A stretch of 64,000 nt of DNA from Agreia sp. Leaf283 (lineage in GTDB: Bacteria > Actinomycetota > Actinomycetes > Actinomycetales > Microbacteriaceae), in contig NZ_LMNF01000004.1 in the NCBI RefSeq assembly GCF_001422485.1, forward strand, positions 62,001 through 126,000, written 5' to 3'. Every line of letters begins with the position of its first letter. Position 1 is the first letter of the stretch. The translations under genes were made by a program, and so were the position numbers. Below, piece by piece: positions 8,178 through 42,261 of the stretch. The notes below the pieces were generated by a model, which was not told the DNA's origin, searched no databases, and was given only the letters and a program-made list of their open reading frames with translations.

Positions 8178-9884
8178 GTGACCGATGAACATCGCCTGCT
8201 TGCCGGGCGGTATCGAATCGGAGAAGTCATCGGCCGTGGGGGAATGGCCAATGTCTACTCAGGACGAGACGAGCGCCTCGGGCGCCAGGTGGCGATCAAG
8301 CTGCTGCGCTCGTCGCTGGCGAGCGATCCCGTCTTCCGCACCCGCTTCAAGCAAGAGGCCCAGGCGGCCTCGCGCATGGCGCATCCCACGATCGTGCGCG
8401 TGTTCGACGCCGGCGAAGAGAAGGTGCGCGAGCCCGGCGGATTCGAGGGTGTCGTTCCGTTCATCGTGATGGAGTACGTCGAAGGACGACTCCTGAAGGA
8501 CATCATCAAAGAAGGCCCCGTCGCTCCTGCGGAGGCCATCCGCATCACCGAGGGCATCCTCACCGCTCTCGAGTACTCGCACCGGGCCGGCGTCGTGCAC
8601 CGCGACATCAAGCCCGGAAACATCATGCTGACCACGTCGGGTCAGGTGAAGGTCATGGACTTCGGAATCGCCCGAGCGATCTCCGACTCGTCGGCGACCG
8701 TCGCCCAGACCACCGCGATCCTGGGAACCGCACAGTACTTCTCCCCCGAGCAGGCCCGCGGCGAATCCGTCGACGCGCGCACCGACCTGTACTCCACCGG
8801 CGTCGTGCTCTTCGAGCTGCTCACCGGTCAGGCTCCCTTCCGAGGAGACACACCCGTCGCCGTCGCCTACCAGCACGTCAGCGAGACCCCTCCGGTTCCC
8901 TCGTCGATCAACCACAACATCTCCCCCGCGATCGACCGGGTCGTTCTGCACGCGCTCACCAAAGACCGCTTCTCCCGCTTCCAGTCCTCGGCCGAGTTCC
9001 GCACCGACCTGCAGATCGCGGGCGCCGGCAAGATCCCGTCGAAGCGACCCCCTGTCGAAGATTTCCAGTCGTCGCTCTTCGGCGCTCCACCGAGCCTCAC
9101 GGCGACGTCCGATTCGGCGCTCACGCAGCTGGCCGGCGACGACGACTACGCGGTGCGCACTCAGTCCAGGCCCCCGGTCGTGTGGATCTGGGCCGGCATC
9201 GCGAGCGTCGCCGTCATCATCATCGCCATCGTCTTCTGGATCTTCACCCTGCAGCCGACCACGATCGTGCCCGACAACTCGATCACCGTGCCCAGCGTGG
9301 CCGGTCAGACCTTCGACTCGGCAGACAGCACGCTGCAACAGGTGGGCCTGGTCACCGCCAGGCAAGACGTGTTCGACCCCGATGTTCCCGAGGGTCGAGT
9401 GATCCGAACCGATCCAGAGCCCGGCACAGTACTGAATCAGGGCTCCGATCTGATGATCGACGTCTACGTGTCACTCGGCAAGCAAACCGTCTCGATTCCG
9501 GATGTCGGGGGGCAGCCCGCCGCTGATGCCACGACAGCCCTCACGACGCTCGGATTGACGGTCGGCACGACGACCAAAGAGAACTCCGCCACGGCTCCGA
9601 CCGACGCCGTGATCCGCACAGACCCGGCCGCGGGCACGGCGAGTTTCGTCGGAGACTCGATCAACCTCGTCATCTCTTCCGGTCTCGTGAGCGTTCCCGA
9701 TGTATCGGGTCAGCCGCTCGATGTGGCGAGCACGACCCTGCAGGGCCTCGCGCTGCAGGTGAGCGTCGAAGGCGACCCCGGCTGCAAGACCGTCGCGGGC
9801 AACCCTGTGTCGAGCCAGTCGATCGCAGCGGGTGACGCGCCCCAGAAGTCGGCCATCGCCATCCGGTACTGCACCGGGGCGTGA
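8178..9884 (+). CDS. pknB: PASTA-domain serine/threonine kinase PknB
   Basis: 568-residue transmembrane kinase sensing muropeptides or lipid II and controlling wall growth. Kinase domain: GRGGMANVY (19-27), catalytic Lys41, HRDIKPGN (Asp143), DFG (161-163), activation loop TTAILGT. A single membrane helix lies at about 334-357. Three PASTA domains follow (about 369-434, 436-503, 504-568); mycobacterial PknB has four. The start is GTG 8178 with GGAG about ten bases upstream. It is the last gene of the fhaA-pknB operon and is convergent with pabA/trpG, only 3 bp from its stop. Confidence 0.96.
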   Translation: MTDEHRLLAGRYRIGEVIGRGGMANVYSGRDERLGRQVAIKLLRSSLASDPVFRTRFKQEAQAASRMAHPTIVRVFDAGEEKVREPGGFEGVVPFIVMEYVEGRLLKDIIKEGPVAPAEAIRITEGILTALEYSHRAGVVHRDIKPGNIMLTTSGQVKVMDFGIARAISDSSATVAQTTAILGTAQYFSPEQARGESVDARTDLYSTGVVLFELLTGQAPFRGDTPVAVAYQHVSETPPVPSSINHNISPAIDRVVLHALTKDRFSRFQSSAEFRTDLQIAGAGKIPSKRPPVEDFQSSLFGAPPSLTATSDSALTQLAGDDDYAVRTQSRPPVVWIWAGIASVAVIIIAIVFWIFTLQPTTIVPDNSITVPSVAGQTFDSADSTLQQVGLVTARQDVFDPDVPEGRVIRTDPEPGTVLNQGSDLMIDVYVSLGKQTVSIPDVGGQPAADATTALTTLGLTVGTTTKENSATAPTDAVIRTDPAAGTASFVGDSINLVISSGLVSVPDVSGQPLDVASTTLQGLALQVSVEGDPGCKTVAGNPVSSQSIAAGDAPQKSAIAIRYCTGA

Positions 9885-31003: not shown

Positions 31004-32149
31004 TTACCGCAGCAACAGGTTCGGCTGCAGCAGGTATTTGTAGTCGTCTGTGCCGGGCTGGTCTTTGGACGACTGGCTCGTGATGAGCACGGGGCCCGGC
31101 TTGTTCGGGTTGTCGGTCTTGGTGAACGAGATCCGAACGTATTCCGAGTGCACAGCACTCAGACCATCAAGCAGGAACTGTGGTTTCAGCGAGACGACGG
31201 TGTCGGAGCCGGTGAGGAGTGCGTCGATCGATTCGGATGCCTGGGCCTGCTCGGAGCCGATGGCCTCGAGGGTGACACCGTCGATCGTGAACGAGAAGCG
31301 GAGCGCGGCCTCGCGCTCGAGAACGAGGCTGACACGGCGAGTCGACTCGATGAGTTCGGCCGTGTTGATGACCGCGTAGTTGTCGACGGTCTCGGGGAAC
31401 AGGCGCTTCACGGGAGGGAAGTTGCCCTTGATGAGCAGCGACGTGACGGTCTTCTTGTCGGCGCGGAAGGCGATCAGTTCGCGGTCGTCGGTGTTGGTGA
31501 TCGAGACCGAGATCGTGCCGGCGTTGCCGAAGGTCTTGCCGACCTCCTGAAGCGTCTTCGCGGGAACGAGCGCGCTCGCCGTGGTGACTCCGGCGTCACC
31601 CGAATCCCAGTCGATGTTGCGCACGGCGACGCGGTAGCGGTCGGTGGCGACGAGCGAGAGCGTGTTGTCGGAGACCTCGAGCTGCACGCCGGTGATGACG
31701 GGCGTGACGTCGTCTCGAGATGCGGCCACGGCGACCTGGGCCACGGCGGCGGCGAACTTGTCGGCGGGCAGGATGCCCGATTCCTCGCCGATCTGCGGAA
31801 GGCTCGGGTACTCCTCGACCGGCATGCTCAGCAGCGTGAACTTGGCTGACCCGCTCGAGACGGTGATGCGTGAGTCTTCTGAGGCGAAGCGCACGGGAGC
31901 GTTGGGGAGCTTGCTCGCGATGTCGGACAGCAGACGGCCTGAGACCAGGACGGTGCCGGGCTCTTCGACGTCTGCGGCGATCTGAGTTTGAGCCGAGACT
32001 TCGTAATCGAACGACGACAGCGTGAGTCCGTCTTCATCGGCCTTGATGAGGATTCCGGAGAGGATCGGCAGAGTGGTTCGCTGAGGCAACAGCTTGACGG
32101 CGAAGGAGACGGCTTCGCTGAAGACGTCTCTGTTGGCTTGGAACTTCAC
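31004..32149 (-). CDS. dnaN: DNA polymerase III beta subunit (sliding clamp)
   Basis: 381-residue clamp protein forming a ring dimer that tethers polymerase to DNA. The start is GTG 32149 (MKFQANRDVFSEAVSFAVKLLPQRTTLPIL), with GGAG in the right place; an upstream in-frame ATG is rejected because it lacks the family N-terminus. Three clamp domains are present, ending DDYKYLLQPNLLLR, close to the usual length. It is the first gene left of oriC. Confidence 0.97.
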   Translation of the reverse strand: MKFQANRDVFSEAVSFAVKLLPQRTTLPILSGILIKADEDGLTLSSFDYEVSAQTQIAADVEEPGTVLVSGRLLSDIASKLPNAPVRFASEDSRITVSSGSAKFTLLSMPVEEYPSLPQIGEESGILPADKFAAAVAQVAVAASRDDVTPVITGVQLEVSDNTLSLVATDRYRVAVRNIDWDSGDAGVTTASALVPAKTLQEVGKTFGNAGTISVSITNTDDRELIAFRADKKTVTSLLIKGNFPPVKRLFPETVDNYAVINTAELIESTRRVSLVLEREAALRFSFTIDGVTLEAIGSEQAQASESIDALLTGSDTVVSLKPQFLLDGLSAVHSEYVRISFTKTDNPNKPGPVLITSQSSKDQPGTDDYKYLLQPNLLLR

Positions 32150-32540
32150 GAAGGCACTCCATACGAGATCGGCCAGTTGAGATGGGTTGCTGATTGGCCT
32201 CAATGCTAGCGGGTGACGACACCGTCGACGGTTTTTGTGATTCGAGGGCGACGCCGTCGGAAAGGTTGTCGGGGGCTGGATTAATTGAATTAAACGTTAA
32301 TGGTCTTAACCGCTGTGGATATGTGGATAACTTCTGTGGATTGCAGTCGTGCGTAGGGAACTACACGAGTGTGAGATGTAGAAATCGTGTGCGGCACGCA
32401 TCCACAACTCGACCCCGCGACGAACGTGGGATTAACGACTCCACAACTCGGGGCCATCTGCTCACACATTCGGAGCCGTTATCCACAGCTTCTGCACAAG
32501 CTGTGGAAAGTGCTGTGCGATGGCACGGTGCGAGGCGCGA
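32150..32540. other. Origin of replication region oriC
   Basis: 391 bp between dnaN and dnaA. It has an AT-rich stretch (32278-32310), a candidate unwinding element, followed by DnaA boxes: TGTGGATAT (32314), exact TGTGGATAA (32322-32330), TGTGGATTG (32335), CATCCACAA (32399), CTCCACAA (32439), exact TTATCCACA (32479-32487) and TGTGGAAAG (32502). Two exact and several degenerate boxes at this location match actinobacterial oriC. No gene is seen. Confidence 0.88.
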
Positions 32541-33974
32541 TCAGACGTCTTTGTAACGCTGGTTGTGCTTGATGCGATTGCTCACTTCGGTGACCTGGTT
32601 GTAGATCGACCGCTTCTCGGTCATGAGCTTGCCGATCTTGTTGTTCGCGTACATCACCGTGGTGTGGTCCCGGCCCCCGAACAACTGGCCGATCTTCGGC
32701 AGCGAGAGACTCGTCATCTCGCGGCACAGGTACATAGCGATCTGTCGTGCAGTCGCGATCGCCTGCGATCTCGACGAGCCGTAGAGATCGTCGACCGACA
32801 GCTTGAAGTACTCGGCCGTGTGGTTGATGATGTCGACCGGCGCGATGATGTTGTCTTCATCGAGGGTGATGAGGTCTTTGAGCACGGTCTGCACGAGCTG
32901 CATGTCGACGGGCGTGCGATTGAGGCTGGCGAACGCCGTGACCCGGATGAGGGTTCCCTCGAGCTCGCGCACATTGGAGGAGACCTTGGTGGCCATGTAT
33001 TCGAGGATGTCGTCGGGAACGCGCAGCTTCTCGCTCTGCGCTTTCTTGCGGAGGATGGCGATGCGCGTCTCGAGGTCGGGCGTCTGCACGTCTGTGATGA
33101 GACCCCATTCGAACCGCGTTCGCATGCGGTCTTCGAATCCGGTCAGGGCCTTCGGCGGAAGGTCCGACGTGATGACGACCTGCTTGTTGTGGTCGTGCAG
33201 GGTGTTGAAGGTGTGGAAGAAGGCTTCCTGGGTCTCGGCCTTGCCCTGCAAAAACTGGATGTCGTCGATGAGGAGCAGATCGATGTCGCGGTAGCGGGAG
33301 TGGAAGGCCGCTCCCCTGTTGTTCGCGATCGAGTTGATGAAGTCGTTGGTGAATTCCTCGCTCGACACGTAGCGAACGCGCACCCCGGGATAGAGGCTCA
33401 TGGCGTAGTGGCCGATGGCGTGCAAGAGGTGGGTCTTGCCGAGACCGGAGTCTCCATAGATGAAGAGCGGGTTGTAGGCCTTGGCCGGTGCCTCGGCAAC
33501 GGCCACCGCCGCGGCGTGGGCGAAGCGGTTCGAGCCGCCGATGACGAAGTTGTCGAAACTGTACTTCGGGTTGAGCCGGGTGTCGTTATTGCGGGGCGGC
33601 CCGACGGTCTCCTGTGCGGGCGTCGGCTGCTGCTGCACGGGCGGCGTCTCGATGTAGACGGGTTCGGATGCCTCGGCCTGGCCGGCCATCTCGGATCCGC
33701 TGATCTCGGGGTTCACCACCACGGAGAAGTTGGTGACGTCGAGGCCGGAGTCGAGCTGGCCGATCGCCGTCAGCAATGACGGGCGCACTCTCAACTCGAG
33801 CATGTCGCGGGTGAAGTCGTTGGGCACTTCGAGGTAGAAGGATCCGGCCATGATGCCCTTGGGCACCACCAGACCGAGGAAGCCGCGGAGCTGCGGTGTG
33901 ATTCGTTCGTCACGGGACAGTGCCTGAAGTACGGAACGCCACTGGCCTTCCGTCGAGGTGTCATCCTCAGCCAT
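32541..33974 (-). CDS. dnaA: Chromosomal replication initiator protein DnaA
   Basis: 477-residue AAA+ ATPase that binds DnaA boxes and melts oriC. Domain I is at about 1-90. A Pro/Gln-rich linker (about 105-140) is followed by domain III with Walker A GDSGLGKTHLL and Walker B LLLIDDIQFLQ. Domain IV has the DNA-binding signature LSLPKIGQLFGGRDHTTVMYA. ATG 33974 (MAEDDTSTEG) has GGGAG seven bases upstream. The protein is normal in length, and the dnaA promoter lies at 34080-34108. Confidence 0.97.
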   Translation of the reverse strand: MAEDDTSTEGQWRSVLQALSRDERITPQLRGFLGLVVPKGIMAGSFYLEVPNDFTRDMLELRVRPSLLTAIGQLDSGLDVTNFSVVVNPEISGSEMAGQAEASEPVYIETPPVQQQPTPAQETVGPPRNNDTRLNPKYSFDNFVIGGSNRFAHAAAVAVAEAPAKAYNPLFIYGDSGLGKTHLLHAIGHYAMSLYPGVRVRYVSSEEFTNDFINSIANNRGAAFHSRYRDIDLLLIDDIQFLQGKAETQEAFFHTFNTLHDHNKQVVITSDLPPKALTGFEDRMRTRFEWGLITDVQTPDLETRIAILRKKAQSEKLRVPDDILEYMATKVSSNVRELEGTLIRVTAFASLNRTPVDMQLVQTVLKDLITLDEDNIIAPVDIINHTAEYFKLSVDDLYGSSRSQAIATARQIAMYLCREMTSLSLPKIGQLFGGRDHTTVMYANNKIGKLMTEKRSIYNQVTEVSNRIKHNQRYKDV

Positions 33975-34079
33975 GGAACTCCCGTCGAACAATATGAAAA
34001 AACAAATCTGCCTGTGGAAAACGAAGGCAGTTAGAGCCGGCGTGCTGAGCGTCCCCGAGCGCCAGCGGGCTGGATAACT

Positions 34080-36126: not shown

Positions 36127-36701
36127 GTGACGTGACAACAGACGCCGCAACCGTGTCGAACGACGAGACGGATGTCGTCGTCGAGGTCGTCGACGAGGCC
36201 GCCATCGGCACCGATCCTGTCGAATCGTCGGAGTCGACGCCTGAGGCGAACCTCGACGACGAGGGCGATATCGCAGCCGACTACATCGAAGAGCTTCTCG
36301 ACATCTGCGACCTCGACGGCGATATCGACATCGACACTCGTGGTGGCCGTGCCTACATCTCGGTCAACGCTTCCGGCGACAGCAACATCCGAGTGCTGTC
36401 GAAGCCCGACACGGTGAACGCTCTTCAGGAACTCACGCGCCTTGCGGTTCAGACCAAGACCGGCGCTTTCAGCCGCCTGATTCTCGATGTCGGCGGAAGC
36501 CGTGAGGCTCGCCAGGCCGAGCTGGGTCGTCTCGTCGACGCCGCTGTTGCGAAGATCGAGGCCGGCGACGAGTCGGCCGCGCTGGAGCCTATGTCGTCGT
36601 ACGAGCGCAAGCTGGTTCACGACATCGTGGCCGAGCGCGGCTTCGTGTCGGCGTCGGAGGGCGACGGCCGCGACCGTCACACCGTCATCACGCGCGCCTG
36701 A
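36123..36701 (+). CDS. jag: R3H-domain RNA-binding protein (Jag/KhpB type)
   Basis: 192-residue protein starting at GTG 36123 in the GTGA overlap with yidC. An acidic N-terminal ~50 residues precede a KH-like domain (about 55-125) and a C-terminal R3H domain (about 130-190), with MSSYERKLVHDIVAERGFVSASEG matching the R3H pattern. KhpB/EloR homologues bind RNA and affect cell elongation in firmicutes; the role in actinobacteria is less clear. Confidence 0.93.
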   Translation: MSDVTTDAATVSNDETDVVVEVVDEAAIGTDPVESSESTPEANLDDEGDIAADYIEELLDICDLDGDIDIDTRGGRAYISVNASGDSNIRVLSKPDTVNALQELTRLAVQTKTGAFSRLILDVGGSREARQAELGRLVDAAVAKIEAGDESAALEPMSSYERKLVHDIVAERGFVSASEGDGRDRHTVITRA

Positions 36702-36729
36702 CCCACTCCCCCACTACCCCGGCACCGCA

Positions 36730-37365
36730 GTGAGCATCCCTGAGAACACCGAAGCCGAGCCCGCCGTTGCGGCTGAGCTCTTCGGAGACCGCATCGAGCT
36801 CGCTCGTCGATTCACGAACGCCCTCGCCACCCACGGCGAGGAGTACGGCTTGATCGGACCGCTCGAGCTCCCCCGCCTGTGGACCCGGCATATCCTCAAC
36901 TGTGCGATCGTGGCGCCGCTGCTGCGCGGGGGCACGGTTGGAGACATCGGCAGTGGAGCTGGTCTGCCGGGCATTGTTCTGGCGATCGCCCGACCCGACG
37001 TTCACTTCACCCTCATCGAGCCGATGGAGCGTCGGGTGAAGTGGCTGAATGATCAGGTGCAAGAACTCGAGCTCGACAACGTGGTGGTGCTGCGTGATCG
37101 GGCCGAAGATGTGCGTCTGCCCGAGGGCTTCGATCAGCTGACAGCCCGAGCTGTGAGCGCCTTCTCGAAGCTCATCCCCATGTGCGCTCCCCTGGTTGTT
37201 CCGGGTGGCGAGTTCATTCTGATGAAGGGCATCAACGCAGCCAAGGAGGTCGAGGCCGCCGAGAAGCAGATCCGCCGTTTCAAACTCCGCGACGTCGAGG
37301 TCATCGAGCTGGGCGAGGGAACACTGCCCGAGACCACCCGGGTGATCCGAGCCACGGTCTCCTGA
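36730..37365 (+). CDS. rsmG: 16S rRNA 7-methylguanosine methyltransferase RsmG
   Basis: 211-residue SAM-dependent enzyme (GidB) methylating G527 of 16S rRNA. The start is GTG 36730 (MSIPENTEAEPAVAAELFG). Motifs: LWTRHILNCAIVAPLL, VGDIGSGAGLPGIVLAI (SAM site) and LTARAVSAFSKLIP. Loss of this enzyme gives low-level streptomycin resistance in other bacteria. A parS site lies 11 bp after the stop. Confidence 0.95.
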   Translation: MSIPENTEAEPAVAAELFGDRIELARRFTNALATHGEEYGLIGPLELPRLWTRHILNCAIVAPLLRGGTVGDIGSGAGLPGIVLAIARPDVHFTLIEPMERRVKWLNDQVQELELDNVVVLRDRAEDVRLPEGFDQLTARAVSAFSKLIPMCAPLVVPGGEFILMKGINAAKEVEAAEKQIRRFKLRDVEVIELGEGTLPETTRVIRATVS

Positions 37366-37375
37366 GAGAAGCCGA

Positions 37376-37391
37376 TGTTTCACGTGAAACA
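37376..37391. promoter_or_regulatory. parS site 1
   Basis: TGTTTCACGTGAAACA, the perfect 16-bp ParB-binding palindrome, 11 bp after rsmG. Confidence 0.95.
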
Positions 37392-38315
37392 TCGATGGGC
37401 GCGCTGACCACGGGTTGGTTCGTGTGCGACCGTGGCAATCGGTCTTTTTCTGGACAGCAGGAAAGGACGAAGAGCCCCACAGACCGGCCGGTTTTTCCGA
37501 ATGCGTGGAGAACCCGCGCCGGAACTAAGTGAAGCGGACCCTTGTCTTGGTTGGGGGTCGCGACTTGACGTCCGGGACAGTGACTCATGGTGACACTGTC
37601 TCCGGCAGATGCTGGTCTGGCTCAGAATGGAGCTGGGGACAGTCTCGTCAAGCGGATTCTGGGCATGAGCTCGAAGCAGCTCGAGGCGTTGTGGGTCGTC
37701 GGTCCGCGGTGGTGAGTGGTGTCGCGCGGTGGTCTGGTGTTGCTGCTGTCCCCTGCTCGCGAGGCCTGTCTTATGGGATACGGCAGCAGTGATCGCGTTC
37801 ATGTTCTCCGTGGCGGATGGGGCCATCGAGATTCGGGCTGGGTTTCAGGAACCCCTCCCCTGGATCGGTCCTGACTGAGATGCATGAGGGCGTCATACTC
37901 CGGGCGGAAGGCAGACACTCTTACGATCATGGGCCAGGCGCCCCGGGCGGTGCGCCTGCAGCGATGAACTGGAATGCAGTAACGACCCAGCGGCGCCGGG
38001 CCTGAGTTGCCCAGAGAACGCGTGTGTTTGACCGGCTGATGAGACCGGTCGCGGCCACCGCGAGTGATTTCGATAAGCCGTTCTTGTTCCGCGCGCGGCT
38101 ACTCAATCGGCGCATTCCGATGTTCAGTCAATAGTCCCCCGGTCGAACATTGAGTTCCGGTGCGCTGGTTCCGTCGGCTCGACGTGGTGACCGCTACTGG
38201 AAAAGAAAGCCCGCCGATCGAGTAGGTCGATTGCGGCCCTGTCGGCTCGTTGCTCGCGTGGCTACTCAATCTGCGAGATTGATGAGATCGACTTGTCGTC
38301 CTATTCCGGGCTCGA

Positions 38316-38331
38316 TGTTTCACGTGAAACA
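38316..38331. promoter_or_regulatory. parS site 2
   Basis: Perfect TGTTTCACGTGAAACA, 56 bp after the start of the GGCTACTCAATC module at 38260. Confidence 0.95.
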
Positions 38332-38710
38332 TGCGGCCATCGGCAACGAGATGCGCCTGTCGATTAGGCCGCTTGCGGCCGTATCGAGGCCACGGCCAGG
38401 GGACGTTTACTCGTCTGCATGATCCCCGTGTAGTTACGTGATCCGGGCATGAGCATGGTCTGTGAGTACGCCCGCGGCCGGACAGGCTTCTCGGCCGGTT
38501 AGTCCCCGGCGGGGGACAGTGGATTCGGATGCGCCGGTCGTTCTGGTTGCAGCGGGAGGTTCTGTCGACAAGGTCCGCCGGTCGGATAGGCCGCCCGCGG
38601 CAGTATCGAGGCCACTGTGAGGTGATTTCGATACGCCCGCTCGTTCCTCCCGTGGCTACTCAATCGGCGCGAGAGTTTAGATTGACCTTTTCGCCGATTC
38701 TGGACGCCTA

Positions 38711-38726
38711 TGTTTCACGTGAAACA
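38711..38726. promoter_or_regulatory. parS site 3
   Basis: Perfect TGTTTCACGTGAAACA, 57 bp after the start of the module at 38654 and 395 bp from site 2. Confidence 0.95.
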
Positions 38727-39054
38727 TGCGATCATCGGCGACAGCGCGCGCCGGTCGAGTAGGCCGCCCGCGGCCGCATCGAGGCCACTTTCACTGATCT
38801 CCTTTCGCCTTCTCGATCCTCATGTGGTTACTCGATCAGGGCATCAGGATGGTCTGTGAGTACTCCCCCGGCCGAACGGTCTATCGTCCGGACAGTCCCT
38901 GGGAGGCACAGTGGATTCCGACGCGCTTGTCTCGCTGGCCGCGGCCGTATCGAGGCCGCTGTGTGGTGATTGTGATACGCCGGTTCGTTCCTAGCGTGGC
39001 TACTCAATCGGCGCGAGGGTTTCGATTGACCTTCCCGCCGATCCTGAACGCCTA

Positions 39055-39070
39055 TGTTTCACGTGAAACA
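39055..39070. promoter_or_regulatory. parS site 4
   Basis: Perfect TGTTTCACGTGAAACA, 57 bp after the start of the module at 38998. Confidence 0.95.
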
Positions 39071-39842
39071 CGCGACCATTGGCGAGGACATGTGCCGGTC
39101 CAGTAGGCCGCTTGCCGCAGGGCCGCTTCCGCAGTATCGGGACTACTTTCAGGTGATGTCGATTCGCGAGATCGCTCCTCGTATGGATATTCGATCCGGG
39201 TATCAGGACGGTCTGTGAGTACTCCCCCGCCCGGACAGACCTCTCGGCCGGATAGTCCCCGGCGGGACAGTGGATTCCCGACCGCCGGTCGTTCTGGTCT
39301 CAGCGCTACGCTCTGTCGAAGAAGTGCGCCGGTCGAGTAAACCGCCTGCGGCCGTATCGCGGCCTCGGTGGATGGTTCTGAGATGCCGGCTCGTGCTTCG
39401 CGTGGTTACGCAATCGGTGCGTTCGTGTGTTCAGTCGATGTCCCTCCGCCGAGTCGGTCCGGCCTGTTCGCCTGACCGGCCAGCACTGTTCGTGGCGGGG
39501 ACTCTGGCAGACGAAGTGCTCCGGAGCAGGCGGGCCACGGATATAAGGAGGCCGCTGTGAGGTGATTTCGATACGCTGGCTCGTTCCTCGCGCGGCTACT
39601 CAATCGGCGCGTTCGTGTGCTCAATCGATGTCCCTCCGCTTAGTCGACTCGGCTGGGTTGGCCGTCGGGCCCGCACTGTCCGTGAAGGGGATTCTGGCGG
39701 ACGAAGTGCTCCGGCCAAGTAGGCCGGCCGCAGGTATATCGAGGCCACCGTAAAGTGATTTCGATACGCCGGCTCGTTCCTCGCTCGGCTACTCAATCAG
39801 CGCGAAGGGAGGATCCGGCTGGCCGATCAGTTTGGATAGCTG

Positions 39843-39858
39843 TGTTTCACGTGAAACA
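39843..39858. promoter_or_regulatory. parS site 5
   Basis: Perfect TGTTTCACGTGAAACA, 56 bp after the start of the module at 39787 and 788 bp (twice 394) from site 4. Confidence 0.95.
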
Positions 39859-40250
39859 TTGACGGAGTAGGTCGATGATTCCCGACTCGACGCGTTACCG
39901 GTGAAACGCATCGTGGGGACAGATTCTCGTCAACCCCATTCCACAATCGCTCGCACCATATTCGCCTACTCGACTTTGTGGCCGCGAGTCAAGGTGCGCG
40001 CCGAACTTTTCGTTCGCTGAAACGGATCCTAAGCGATTTTCGGCTCTGCGAAAAAACCCGAAATCGGGACCAGATTCGACCGATTCTGGTCTCAACTTAG
40101 AGTTTCCAGCGGCGACAGGTACTTTGGTCTAGGGACGATTTCGTTTCGACATCTGGTCGTTTCAGTGGTCGATCGATGTCTCCCATCCCCCTCCCCCGAC
40201 CTCGGGTCTCAACAGGTCGACAACGGAACTCAGCAAGTCAGGATTTGTGG

Positions 40251-41177
40251 ATGTCAACGGAAGCAATCGGCGGAGCAGCATCATTCGATGCGTCGACGCC
40301 CCTGGCTCGTGAACTGGCCGACCTCTCGAACCGGCGACGCAATTTCGCCAAACGTGTCGTGCCACTGCCGGAGACCACGAGGGTGTTCACGGTCGCGAAC
40401 CAGAAGGGGGGCGTGGGCAAGACCACGACGACGGTCAACCTTGCCGCTGCCCTCGCGCGGAGCGGAGCTCGAGTGCTCGTCATCGACCTCGACCCCCAGG
40501 GCAATGCGTCGACAGCATTGGGAGTCGAACACCGCGCTGAGACGCCGAGCGTCTACGACGCTCTGATCCGAGACGAGCCGATGTCGGATCTCGTGCAGAA
40601 GAGCCCCGAGTTCGACACCCTGTTCTGTGTGCCGGCGACCATCGACCTGGCAGGTGCCGAGATCGAACTCGTTCCCATGGTCGCCCGCGAGCAGCGGCTG
40701 CGCAGCAGCGTCGACACCTACCTGCAGGAGTCATTCGACGCCGGCGCCGCCTACCACTACGTCTTCATCGATTGCCCTCCCTCGTTGGGGCTGCTCACCA
40801 TCAACGCGTTCGTCGCAGCCCACGAGGTTCTCATCCCCATCCAGTGCGAGTACTACGCACTCGAGGGTCTGAGCCAACTGCTCAAGAACATCCAGCTGAT
40901 CGAGCGTCACCTGAATCCGACTTTGGCCGTGTCGACGATCCTGCTCACCATGTACGACGGACGAACACGCTTGGCTTTCCAGGTCGCTGAGGATGTGCGC
41001 AGCCACTTCCCCGACCAGACGCTCACCGCTGTTATCCCGCGGTCGGTGAGAGTGTCGGAGGCTCCCAGTTATGGTCAGACCGTGATCAGCTTCGACCCCA
41101 ATTCCCCCGGCGCGCTCTCGTATTTCGAGGCCGCAGCCGAGATCGCAGACAGAGGAGCGCCCACCGATGGCAACTAA
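40251..41177 (+). CDS. parA: Chromosome partitioning ATPase ParA
   Basis: 308-residue Walker-type ATPase that drives origin segregation with ParB. The start ATG 40251 (MSTEAIGGAASFDAS) is chosen over an upstream in-frame ATG at 40176 because GGA lies eight bases before it and the extra residues look non-native. The deviant Walker A KGGVGKTTTTVNLAAAL is present, as are Walker B YHYVFIDCPPSLGLLT and IPIQCEYYALEG. The parB start overlaps its last 11 bp. Confidence 0.95.
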   Translation: MSTEAIGGAASFDASTPLARELADLSNRRRNFAKRVVPLPETTRVFTVANQKGGVGKTTTTVNLAAALARSGARVLVIDLDPQGNASTALGVEHRAETPSVYDALIRDEPMSDLVQKSPEFDTLFCVPATIDLAGAEIELVPMVAREQRLRSSVDTYLQESFDAGAAYHYVFIDCPPSLGLLTINAFVAAHEVLIPIQCEYYALEGLSQLLKNIQLIERHLNPTLAVSTILLTMYDGRTRLAFQVAEDVRSHFPDQTLTAVIPRSVRVSEAPSYGQTVISFDPNSPGALSYFEAAAEIADRGAPTDGN

Positions 41178-42168
41178 GAAGAGAACAGGTCTGGGCCGCG
41201 GAATCGGCGCCCTCATTCCCACGAACGATGCGGTCGACGCCGACGGTCGGCCAGGAGCCAGGCCCGTCGATGTCTTCTTCGCTGATCGCGGCGATGCGAC
41301 GGTGTCGTCGCTGCCCCAGGCGAGTCGCCCCGAGACGGAGCTGGTCGAGGTGCCGGGTGCCCGGCTGGCGCACCTGAACCCTGCCGACATCGTTCCCAAC
41401 GCGAAGCAGCCGCGCGCCGTCTTCAAGGAGGACGACCTGGCCGAGCTCGTGGTGTCGATTCGCGAGATCGGTGTGCTGCAGCCTGTCGTCGTGCGGCCGT
41501 TACCCGTTGTGGAGGGCGAGAAGCCCAAGTACGAGTTGGTCATGGGCGAGCGTCGCCTGCGCGCAACGCGCCAGGTCGGCCTCGACACGATCCCGGCGAT
41601 CGTCAAGGACACCGCAGACGAGAACATGCTGCGCGATGCTCTGCTCGAGAACCTCCACCGCTCAGAGCTCAACCCGCTCGAAGAGGCGTCCGCCTACCAG
41701 CAGCTGTTGAGCGACTTCGGCATCACTCAAGACGAGCTGGCTACGCGCATCGGCCGATCGCGCCCCCAGATCACCAATACCATTCGCCTGCTTCGCCTAC
41801 CGGCCGCCGTACAGAAGCGCGTTGCGGCCGGAGTTCTGAGCGCGGGCCATGCGCGCGCCGTGCTCTCAGCCGGCGATGCCGACGCGATGACTCGCCTGGC
41901 CGACAAGATCGTGAACGAGGACCTCTCGGTTCGCGCTGCCGAGGCGGCGGCGACAGCCGTGCCGAAGCCGGCGAAGGCCAAGACGGCCGCGGGCACGAAG
42001 CGCGGTCACCTCGATGAGATCGCCGATCGGCTGGGCGATCGCCTCGACACCCGTGTGAAGGTGAGCCTCGGCAGGACCAAGGGCCAGATTGTCATCGACT
42101 TCGCGACCATCGGCGACCTGAATCGCATCCTCGCGGAACTGGGCGACAAAGGCTTCGGTCGCCCCTGA
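41167..42168 (+). CDS. parB: Chromosome partitioning protein ParB
   Basis: 333-residue CTP-dependent clamp that loads at parS and spreads. The N-terminus MATKKRTGLGRGIGALIP is typical. The CTP-binding boxes include NAKQPRAVF and GERRLRATRQVGL with ENLHRSELNPLEEA. The central helix-turn-helix (about 190-215) has TQDELATRIGRSRPQITNTIRLLRLP, and the C-terminal dimerisation domain ends DLNRILAELGDKGFGRP. Seven parS sites flank the parAB operon. Confidence 0.97.
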   Translation: MATKKRTGLGRGIGALIPTNDAVDADGRPGARPVDVFFADRGDATVSSLPQASRPETELVEVPGARLAHLNPADIVPNAKQPRAVFKEDDLAELVVSIREIGVLQPVVVRPLPVVEGEKPKYELVMGERRLRATRQVGLDTIPAIVKDTADENMLRDALLENLHRSELNPLEEASAYQQLLSDFGITQDELATRIGRSRPQITNTIRLLRLPAAVQKRVAAGVLSAGHARAVLSAGDADAMTRLADKIVNEDLSVRAAEAAATAVPKPAKAKTAAGTKRGHLDEIADRLGDRLDTRVKVSLGRTKGQIVIDFATIGDLNRILAELGDKGFGRP

Positions 42169-42187: not shown

Positions 42188-42221
42188 CAACCCCGATGTT
42201 TCACGTGAAACATCGGGGTTG
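42188..42221. terminator. parB terminator with parS site 6 as its core
   Basis: A 34-bp perfect palindrome whose arms are CAACCCCGATGTTTCAC and its complement, 20 bp after the parB stop. Its centre is the exact 16-bp parS (42197-42212). In RNA it forms a 17-bp stem, so it can serve both as terminator and as ParB site. Confidence 0.8.
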
Positions 42222-42245: not shown

Positions 42246-42261
42246 TGTTTCACGTGAAACA
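42246..42261. promoter_or_regulatory. parS site 7
   Basis: Perfect TGTTTCACGTGAAACA, 49 bp from site 6, between the parB and ddl-like stop codons. Confidence 0.95.

Follow-up and report, generated by a model that had tools for sequence, protein, structure and literature searches.

The locus described here is quite probably an ordinary origin-proximal ParABS centromere in which the number of parS sites has been raised, in an Agreia-like lineage, by local tandem duplication. On sequence grounds, what was duplicated is a two-part block, E-P-E-T2, in which E is a ~105-bp palindromic element carrying GGCTACTCAATC near its right end, P is a ~75-bp stretch bearing parS and T2 is a spacer bearing GGTCTGTGAGTA (a different spacer, T3, occurs elsewhere in the array). 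This reading is based on homology of the P flanks, homology of the T2 spacers and the grouping together of the right-hand E copies.

An origin-proximal ParABS locus with seven parS sites

The repeats lie in the rsmG–parA spacer of the window (the whole 64,000-nucleotide stretch that was analysed), which extends for 2.8 kb from the stop of rsmG at 37365 to parA at 40176, with parB next after parA. The left neighbour, rsmG (gidB; 36730–37365, plus strand), was identified by a Pfam GidB match of 4e-46 on the open reading frame 36487–37365, the start at 36730 being read from the sequence. parA (40176–41177, plus strand) matches AAA_31 (9e-58), and parB (41167–42168, plus strand) matches HTH_ParB (3e-33) and ParB_N (5e-31). 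The Pfam assignments thus place parA beside an HTH-type parB, as in chromosomal ParABS systems, and the perfect 16-bp palindromic parS sites are likewise those of a chromosomal system. Both dnaA (32541–33992) and dnaN (31004–32203) lie on the minus strand a few kb upstream of the spacer; since dnaA is ~3.4 to 6 kb from the parS sites of the spacer, the locus is origin-proximal as judged by the position of this gene. The closest named relative is the locus of Agreia sp. PsM10, with a ParB 98% identical.

Perfect copies of the parS sequence TGTTTCACGTGAAACA are present at 37376–37391 (parS 1), 38316–38331 (parS 2), 38711–38726 (parS 3), 39055–39070 (parS 4), 39843–39858 (parS 5), 42197–42212 (parS 6) and 42246–42261 (parS 7), and with up to 3 mismatches allowed the window has these seven matches and no more, against an expectation of 0.07. 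The last two, 3' of parB, had been missing from the list of sites in a preliminary description of this DNA. At up to 2 mismatches no parS was found beyond the window in the whole 3.98-Mb genome (four contigs), giving a genome total of seven. parS 1 is situated ~11 bp past the rsmG stop, outside the array, and has a counterpart in all five named Agreia loci. parS 2, 3 and 4 are the duplicated copies, with homologous flanks, while parS 5 occupies the place of the parA-proximal site of the same five loci. We also observed that parS 6 lies in the middle of a perfect palindrome of 34 bp, CAACCCCGA-parS-TCGGGGTTG, at 42188–42221, directly 3' of the parB stop. The arrangement CCCCGA-parS-TCGGGG is common to all five named Agreia loci, and it may combine a terminator hairpin and a parS site.

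Anatomy of the array and its dispersed element

From left to right, the array has the order E0 - T3' - [E-P-E-T2] x3 - [E-T3] x2 - E - parS 5. Between parS 1 and the array there is a stretch of ~640 bp (37400–38040) without detected array repeats. E0 (38049–38113, plus strand) is an incomplete copy of E, the dispersed palindrome, recognised by its self-BLAST matches to the other E copies. The three blocks that follow, all on the plus strand, can be aligned with each other along their length. Block 1 (38204–38560) has an internal deletion of ~30 bp in its left-hand E, Block 2 (38561–38904) is ~50 bp shorter at its end, and Block 3 (38905–39311) has a 14-bp insertion in its right-hand E. The spacings from parS 2 to parS 5 are 395, 344 and 788 bp, and the value of 344 instead of 394 fits the absence of ~50 bp from the end of Block 2. 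Beyond the blocks lie two E-T3-E stretches (39311–39611 and 39502–39804, both plus strand), 76% identical at an offset of 191, neither of which contains a parS or a remnant of one; the right-hand end of the second is the E copy that precedes parS 5. A search of Rfam with 37300–40300 returned zero families at E<=1.

The preliminary description had reported parS sites phased within a diverged repeat array, and its coordinates, phases and spacings proved exact. GGCTACTCAATC occurs without mismatch at 38097, 38260, 38654, 38998, 39594 and 39787 (allowing up to 1 mismatch, the window has 6 matches against an expectation of 0.12), and four of the six copies precede a parS site, by 56, 57, 57 and 56 bp, the last of these phases being that of parS 5. 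The second module it had named is equally real, with exact GGTCTGTGAGTA matches at 38457, 38851 and 39210, although with up to 2 mismatches allowed this word is not above chance over the entire window (6 matches against an expectation of 3.01, with 9 of 100 shuffles reaching 6). Homology also extends beyond the short modules, as had been proposed: besides the alignment of the three blocks, self-BLAST gives repeats of 372, 444, 306 and 310 bp, with identities of 77, 72, 76 and 74%, respectively.

The role assigned to GGCTACTCAATC, as a module of a centromere repeat, did not survive a genome-wide search, since the word lies within a dispersed palindromic element. A search with a single E copy gave 40 genomic matches at E<=1, 8 of which lie inside the array. 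With the whole spacer as query, at least 54 matches at E<=0.01 were obtained (a lower bound, 40 of 88 candidates having been scored), of which one is the spacer matching itself, one a short hit to parS 1 and the rest, at least 52, lie outside the spacer, all of the latter on E stretches. Matches to E are present in seven of the eight genus genomes, at 1 to 44 each, and a strict pattern for its right half is found in 19 of 150 family genomes, our own included. No parS was detected at up to 3 mismatches at the fetched E loci away from the array, in flanks of 1.5 kb. As far as sequence comparison can tell, then, E is not a centromere-specific repeat and, because it is dispersed, a common E cannot by itself prove shared ancestry of the sites beside it.

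Dispersed copies of E read as imperfect palindromes, and the four that were folded gave z −1.8, −1.8, −4.4 and −7.6. The six E stretches of the array that were tested, two of them half elements, do not fold better than shuffles (z between −1.3 and +0.95), and the reading of them as hairpins was dropped. REP and BIME sequences are short dispersed palindromic repeats present in many copies, and E resembles them in being a dispersed palindrome. It differs in that a Y1 (RAYT-type) transposase, PF01797, was found in none of the eight genus genomes, with 5 of 14 control genomes positive; such an enzyme was dropped as the mover of E, and membership of the REP/BIME class is not claimed. Two further features of E were seen by eye. 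Among the listed matches, the palindrome TTTCGATACG...CTACTC has an inner stem that covaries on both sides in several genera, and a second dispersed repeat, resembling CCCTTCGACAAGCTCAGGGAACG, stands beside several E copies (L009, L015, L017 and L021, loci of the window's own genome).

Duplication and the alternatives

Given the dispersal of E, the comparison of parS flanks was restricted to the letters between E and parS, excluding both, with random stretches of the window as the null. By this test the sites at 38316, 38711 and 39055 have homologous flanks (pairwise joint p 0.00025, 0.00085 and 0.00025; the upstream spacers of 38316 and 39055 taken alone are weak, p 0.05). The T2 spacers are mutually 79–83% identical over 86–121 bp. 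Furthermore, a tree built from 17 E copies places the three right-hand block copies in one group (94/95; 92% of bootstraps), though it is weak overall, with no branch at the tool's 95/80 mark and an unsettled bootstrap. This group is separate from the left-hand, dispersed and sister-species copies, a value as low being reached in 5 of 500 label shuffles, and the left-hand copies fail to group (14% of bootstraps). Homology outside both parS and E, as expected of a tandemly duplicated array, is therefore found for three sites and not for 39843, whose flanks show no detectable homology to those of the three (joint p 0.31, 0.31 and 0.47). Its upstream spacer gave p 0.06 against that of 38711, and 0.016 and 0.021 under a slightly different cut. 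Apparent support for 39843 as a further P copy came from the E end, or from masked parS letters scored as matches, and was gone once these were removed. Hence the proposal that the centromere expanded by duplicating a parS-bearing unit holds for three copies, on flanks, block alignment and E tree, and is not supported for the fourth.

The arrangement in relatives, for which the parA start was estimated by alignment, points in the same direction. In each of the five named Agreia loci the rsmG–parA spacer holds two parS sites, one 10–11 bp past rsmG and one 271–331 bp ahead of parA, and two more follow parB. At up to 1 mismatch, all seven other genomes of the genus (partly the same as the named loci, judging from site spacings) have 3–4 parS sites, as against seven here. 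Since 37376 and 39843 match the old Agreia sites in position, the three block sites are most simply explained as a gain, and the two outer sites flank the array and, by position, predate it. Relatives with the same parS sites in unrelated flanking sequence, which the preliminary description had counted against an expanding array, do exist for the rsmG-side and parA-side sites; only the three in the middle represent the expansion. The equivalent spacer of a sister locus (L069, ParB 98% identical) holds an E array of 196-bp period with no parS between the repeats, and its two spacers have no homology to T2 or T3 at p<=0.02. The spacers of the other four of the five named Agreia loci gave no match to E at E<=1e-4.

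Phasing of the kind seen here could also arise if the parS sites were old and independent, and a mobile palindrome, E, had inserted repeatedly nearby at a preferred distance. The dispersal of E accords with this, as does 39843, which has E at an equal 56-bp phase and flanks that are not detectably related. However, the P flanks and T2 of the three units are homologous outside E and parS; the account also sits poorly with the grouping of the right-hand E copies and with the lack of parS sites both in the rest of the genome (up to 2 mismatches) and at the fetched E loci (up to 3). We consider this account unlikely in general, and for the three duplicated sites it is disfavoured. Alternatively, one parS unit might have been amplified over the entire array, with 39843 another copy and parS lost from two units in the gap before it, as the preliminary description had supposed. 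The length of the gap, 788 bp or twice 394, and the E copies inside it are in keeping with this, as are the marginal likeness of the 39843 and 38711 upstream spacers in the less strict tests and the existence elsewhere of decayed homologous sites (L143 at 5538, with 3 mismatches, and L132 near 8381, which by eye looks like a degraded site with 3 mismatches to parS). Nevertheless, what fills the gap is not two parS-bearing units but an E, a T2 and a pair of ~190-bp E-T3 monomers, and P-T3 pairs never reached p 0.02, so the agreement with twice 394 looks coincidental. The positions at which a remnant would fall by phase, after 38097, 39404 and 39594, show none (10–15 of 16 letters mismatched), and the most parS-like word in the array, known sites aside, has 7 mismatches, no better than shuffles. 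With the joint flank test also failing for 39843, amplification and loss over the whole array appears very improbable indeed.

The repeats could instead be functional, for example if a protein on the E ends or T2 bounded ParB spreading or aided handover to ParA or SMC. Conservation within the blocks bears on this question and on the fate of the duplicated sites. In the block alignment parS agrees at 16 of 16 positions in all three blocks, as compared with 170 of 290 other ungapped columns, and at the background rate 16 columns would all agree with a probability of 0.0002. A run as long as the longest agreeing one, 17 columns at parS, arose in 2 of 5000 column shuffles. Two further runs show no difference among the three blocks, one of 15 columns around GTGGCTACTCAATC at the end of E and one of 13 columns, GGTCTGTGAGTAC, in T2. 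Runs of these two lengths were reached in 5 and 19 of 5000 shuffles, and look rarer than they are because gapped columns were shuffled as well. Since the latter two runs are also rare, and the blocks were picked for containing parS, conservation does not cleanly single out parS; selection on the parS copies is nonetheless likely. The conserved E-end and T2 runs speak for a function of the repeats. Against such a function, E is dispersed over the genome without parS and its end is perhaps conserved for its own reasons, the array copies fold no better than shuffles whereas the dispersed ones fold better, and four of the five named Agreia spacers do without a match to E. A functional role for the repeats seems to us very unlikely.

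Under the preferred reading, local tandem duplication, adjacent E copies would have undergone homologous exchange or slippage, which would have duplicated the stretch between them. Each parS would load ParB clamps, and ParB binding would have kept the new sites intact through selection, the repeats being mostly by-products and the rest free to drift. The parS-bearing blocks are 73–80% alike outside parS, so the duplication was not recent. Because the blocks are old and diverged, the duplication junctions can no longer be read, and we infer the exchange between E copies.

Other centromeres and relatives

In the higher-order repeats of eukaryotic satellites, the centromere-protein site is found in alternate monomers. 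The array is like these, by analogy only, in having a two-part repeat with such a site in one part; it differs in that there is no homology and only three copies are present. A closer parallel is the tandem-repeat centromere, of which sopC of the F plasmid is an example and in which the plasmid units are short and regular. There, as here, the number of ParB sites is raised by a repeated unit that bears the site, but the present units are ~344–407 bp long, diverged, chromosomal and made of two kinds of sub-unit. Plasmid centromeres have been described in general terms as tandem repeats of ParB sites (PMC9499535). Among chromosomes, Myxococcus xanthus has 22 parS sites in 3 kb, ~4 kb upstream of parA (PMC3899335), which is similar in having 16-bp sites near parA and many of them within a few kb. 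Unit homology and an internal dispersed element are seen in our array, whereas the passages concerned with the M. xanthus cluster are silent on homology between units. The number of parS sites in Streptomyces averages 22.8, with a range of 11–65 (PMC8743542).

What drives the clustering of parS sites has been named as an open question, one answer being that new sites are restricted to a permissive zone (PMC7333895), and such a zone for parS has been described in Caulobacter (PMC5815017). The present finding adds a mutational source of new parS sites. In the window and four other loci of the family Microbacteriaceae, three of them from Cryobacterium, a stretch containing parS was duplicated locally, in the window's case between copies of a dispersed element. 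This mutational route suggests one way for bacterial centromere sites to multiply and cluster. Growth of parS number through dispersed repeats was not among the titles and abstract openings listed from the open-licence literature, which does not imply its absence from print. With respect to consequences, the relevant passages of one study state that condensation force in vitro increased with parS number (7, 13 and 26 sites), that no condensation was observed at 1, 2 or 4 sites, which its authors attribute to a limit of the assay, and that according to these authors one parS suffices for segregation (PMC8299390). The difference between seven sites here and 3–4 in the seven congeners is a natural experiment on parS number: an increase from four to seven within a genus makes an effect of number testable and is not itself evidence for one. 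It is possible, but we think rather unlikely, that the whole chain applies, with dispersed palindromes promoting duplication in the origin region and thereby centromere growth and clustering, and the rise from four to seven sites kept for stronger ParB-driven condensation.

The survey of relatives covered the window and 80 loci chosen as the best ParB matches rather than as a random sample. At least two parS sites at up to 2 mismatches are present in 77 loci, the window and 76 of the 80, the remaining four having fewer. Some flank similarity between parS sites was found in 9 of the 77, and in-register duplication (at least 20 bp of homology on both sides with parS masked) in 5: the window, Cryobacterium L110, L132 and L144, and Leifsonia virtsii L143, representing three genera. 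When the positions were shifted as a control, 2, 1 and 1 loci were scored at −150, +150 and +300 bp and none at the other five shifts, and the positives were L132, L143 and L144, that is, duplicated loci themselves. The Cryobacterium units have short pieces in common with each other's loci, so that the duplications may not be separate events. We also recorded, in all 81 loci, what stands opposite each parS inside every repeat alignment. Across 5 loci this gave 14 distinct sites, and 12 of these sites, counted by eye, retain the 14-bp core GTTTCACGTGAAAC; the script chose the best match no more than 3 bp away, passed over sites lacking an aligned partner and left alignments ending at the site uncounted. 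The in-register alignments are 65–81% identical outside parS.

A dispersed repeat lies within the parS units in two of the three genomes examined, those of the window and of L132. In L143 the unit is restricted to its own array, with 3 matches in its genome. The L132 unit contains a stretch of ~27 bp (in the region 9003–9035) with ~100 matches in its genome, or 106 when its own array is counted, and by eye these matches often run at steps of ~54 or 100 bp.
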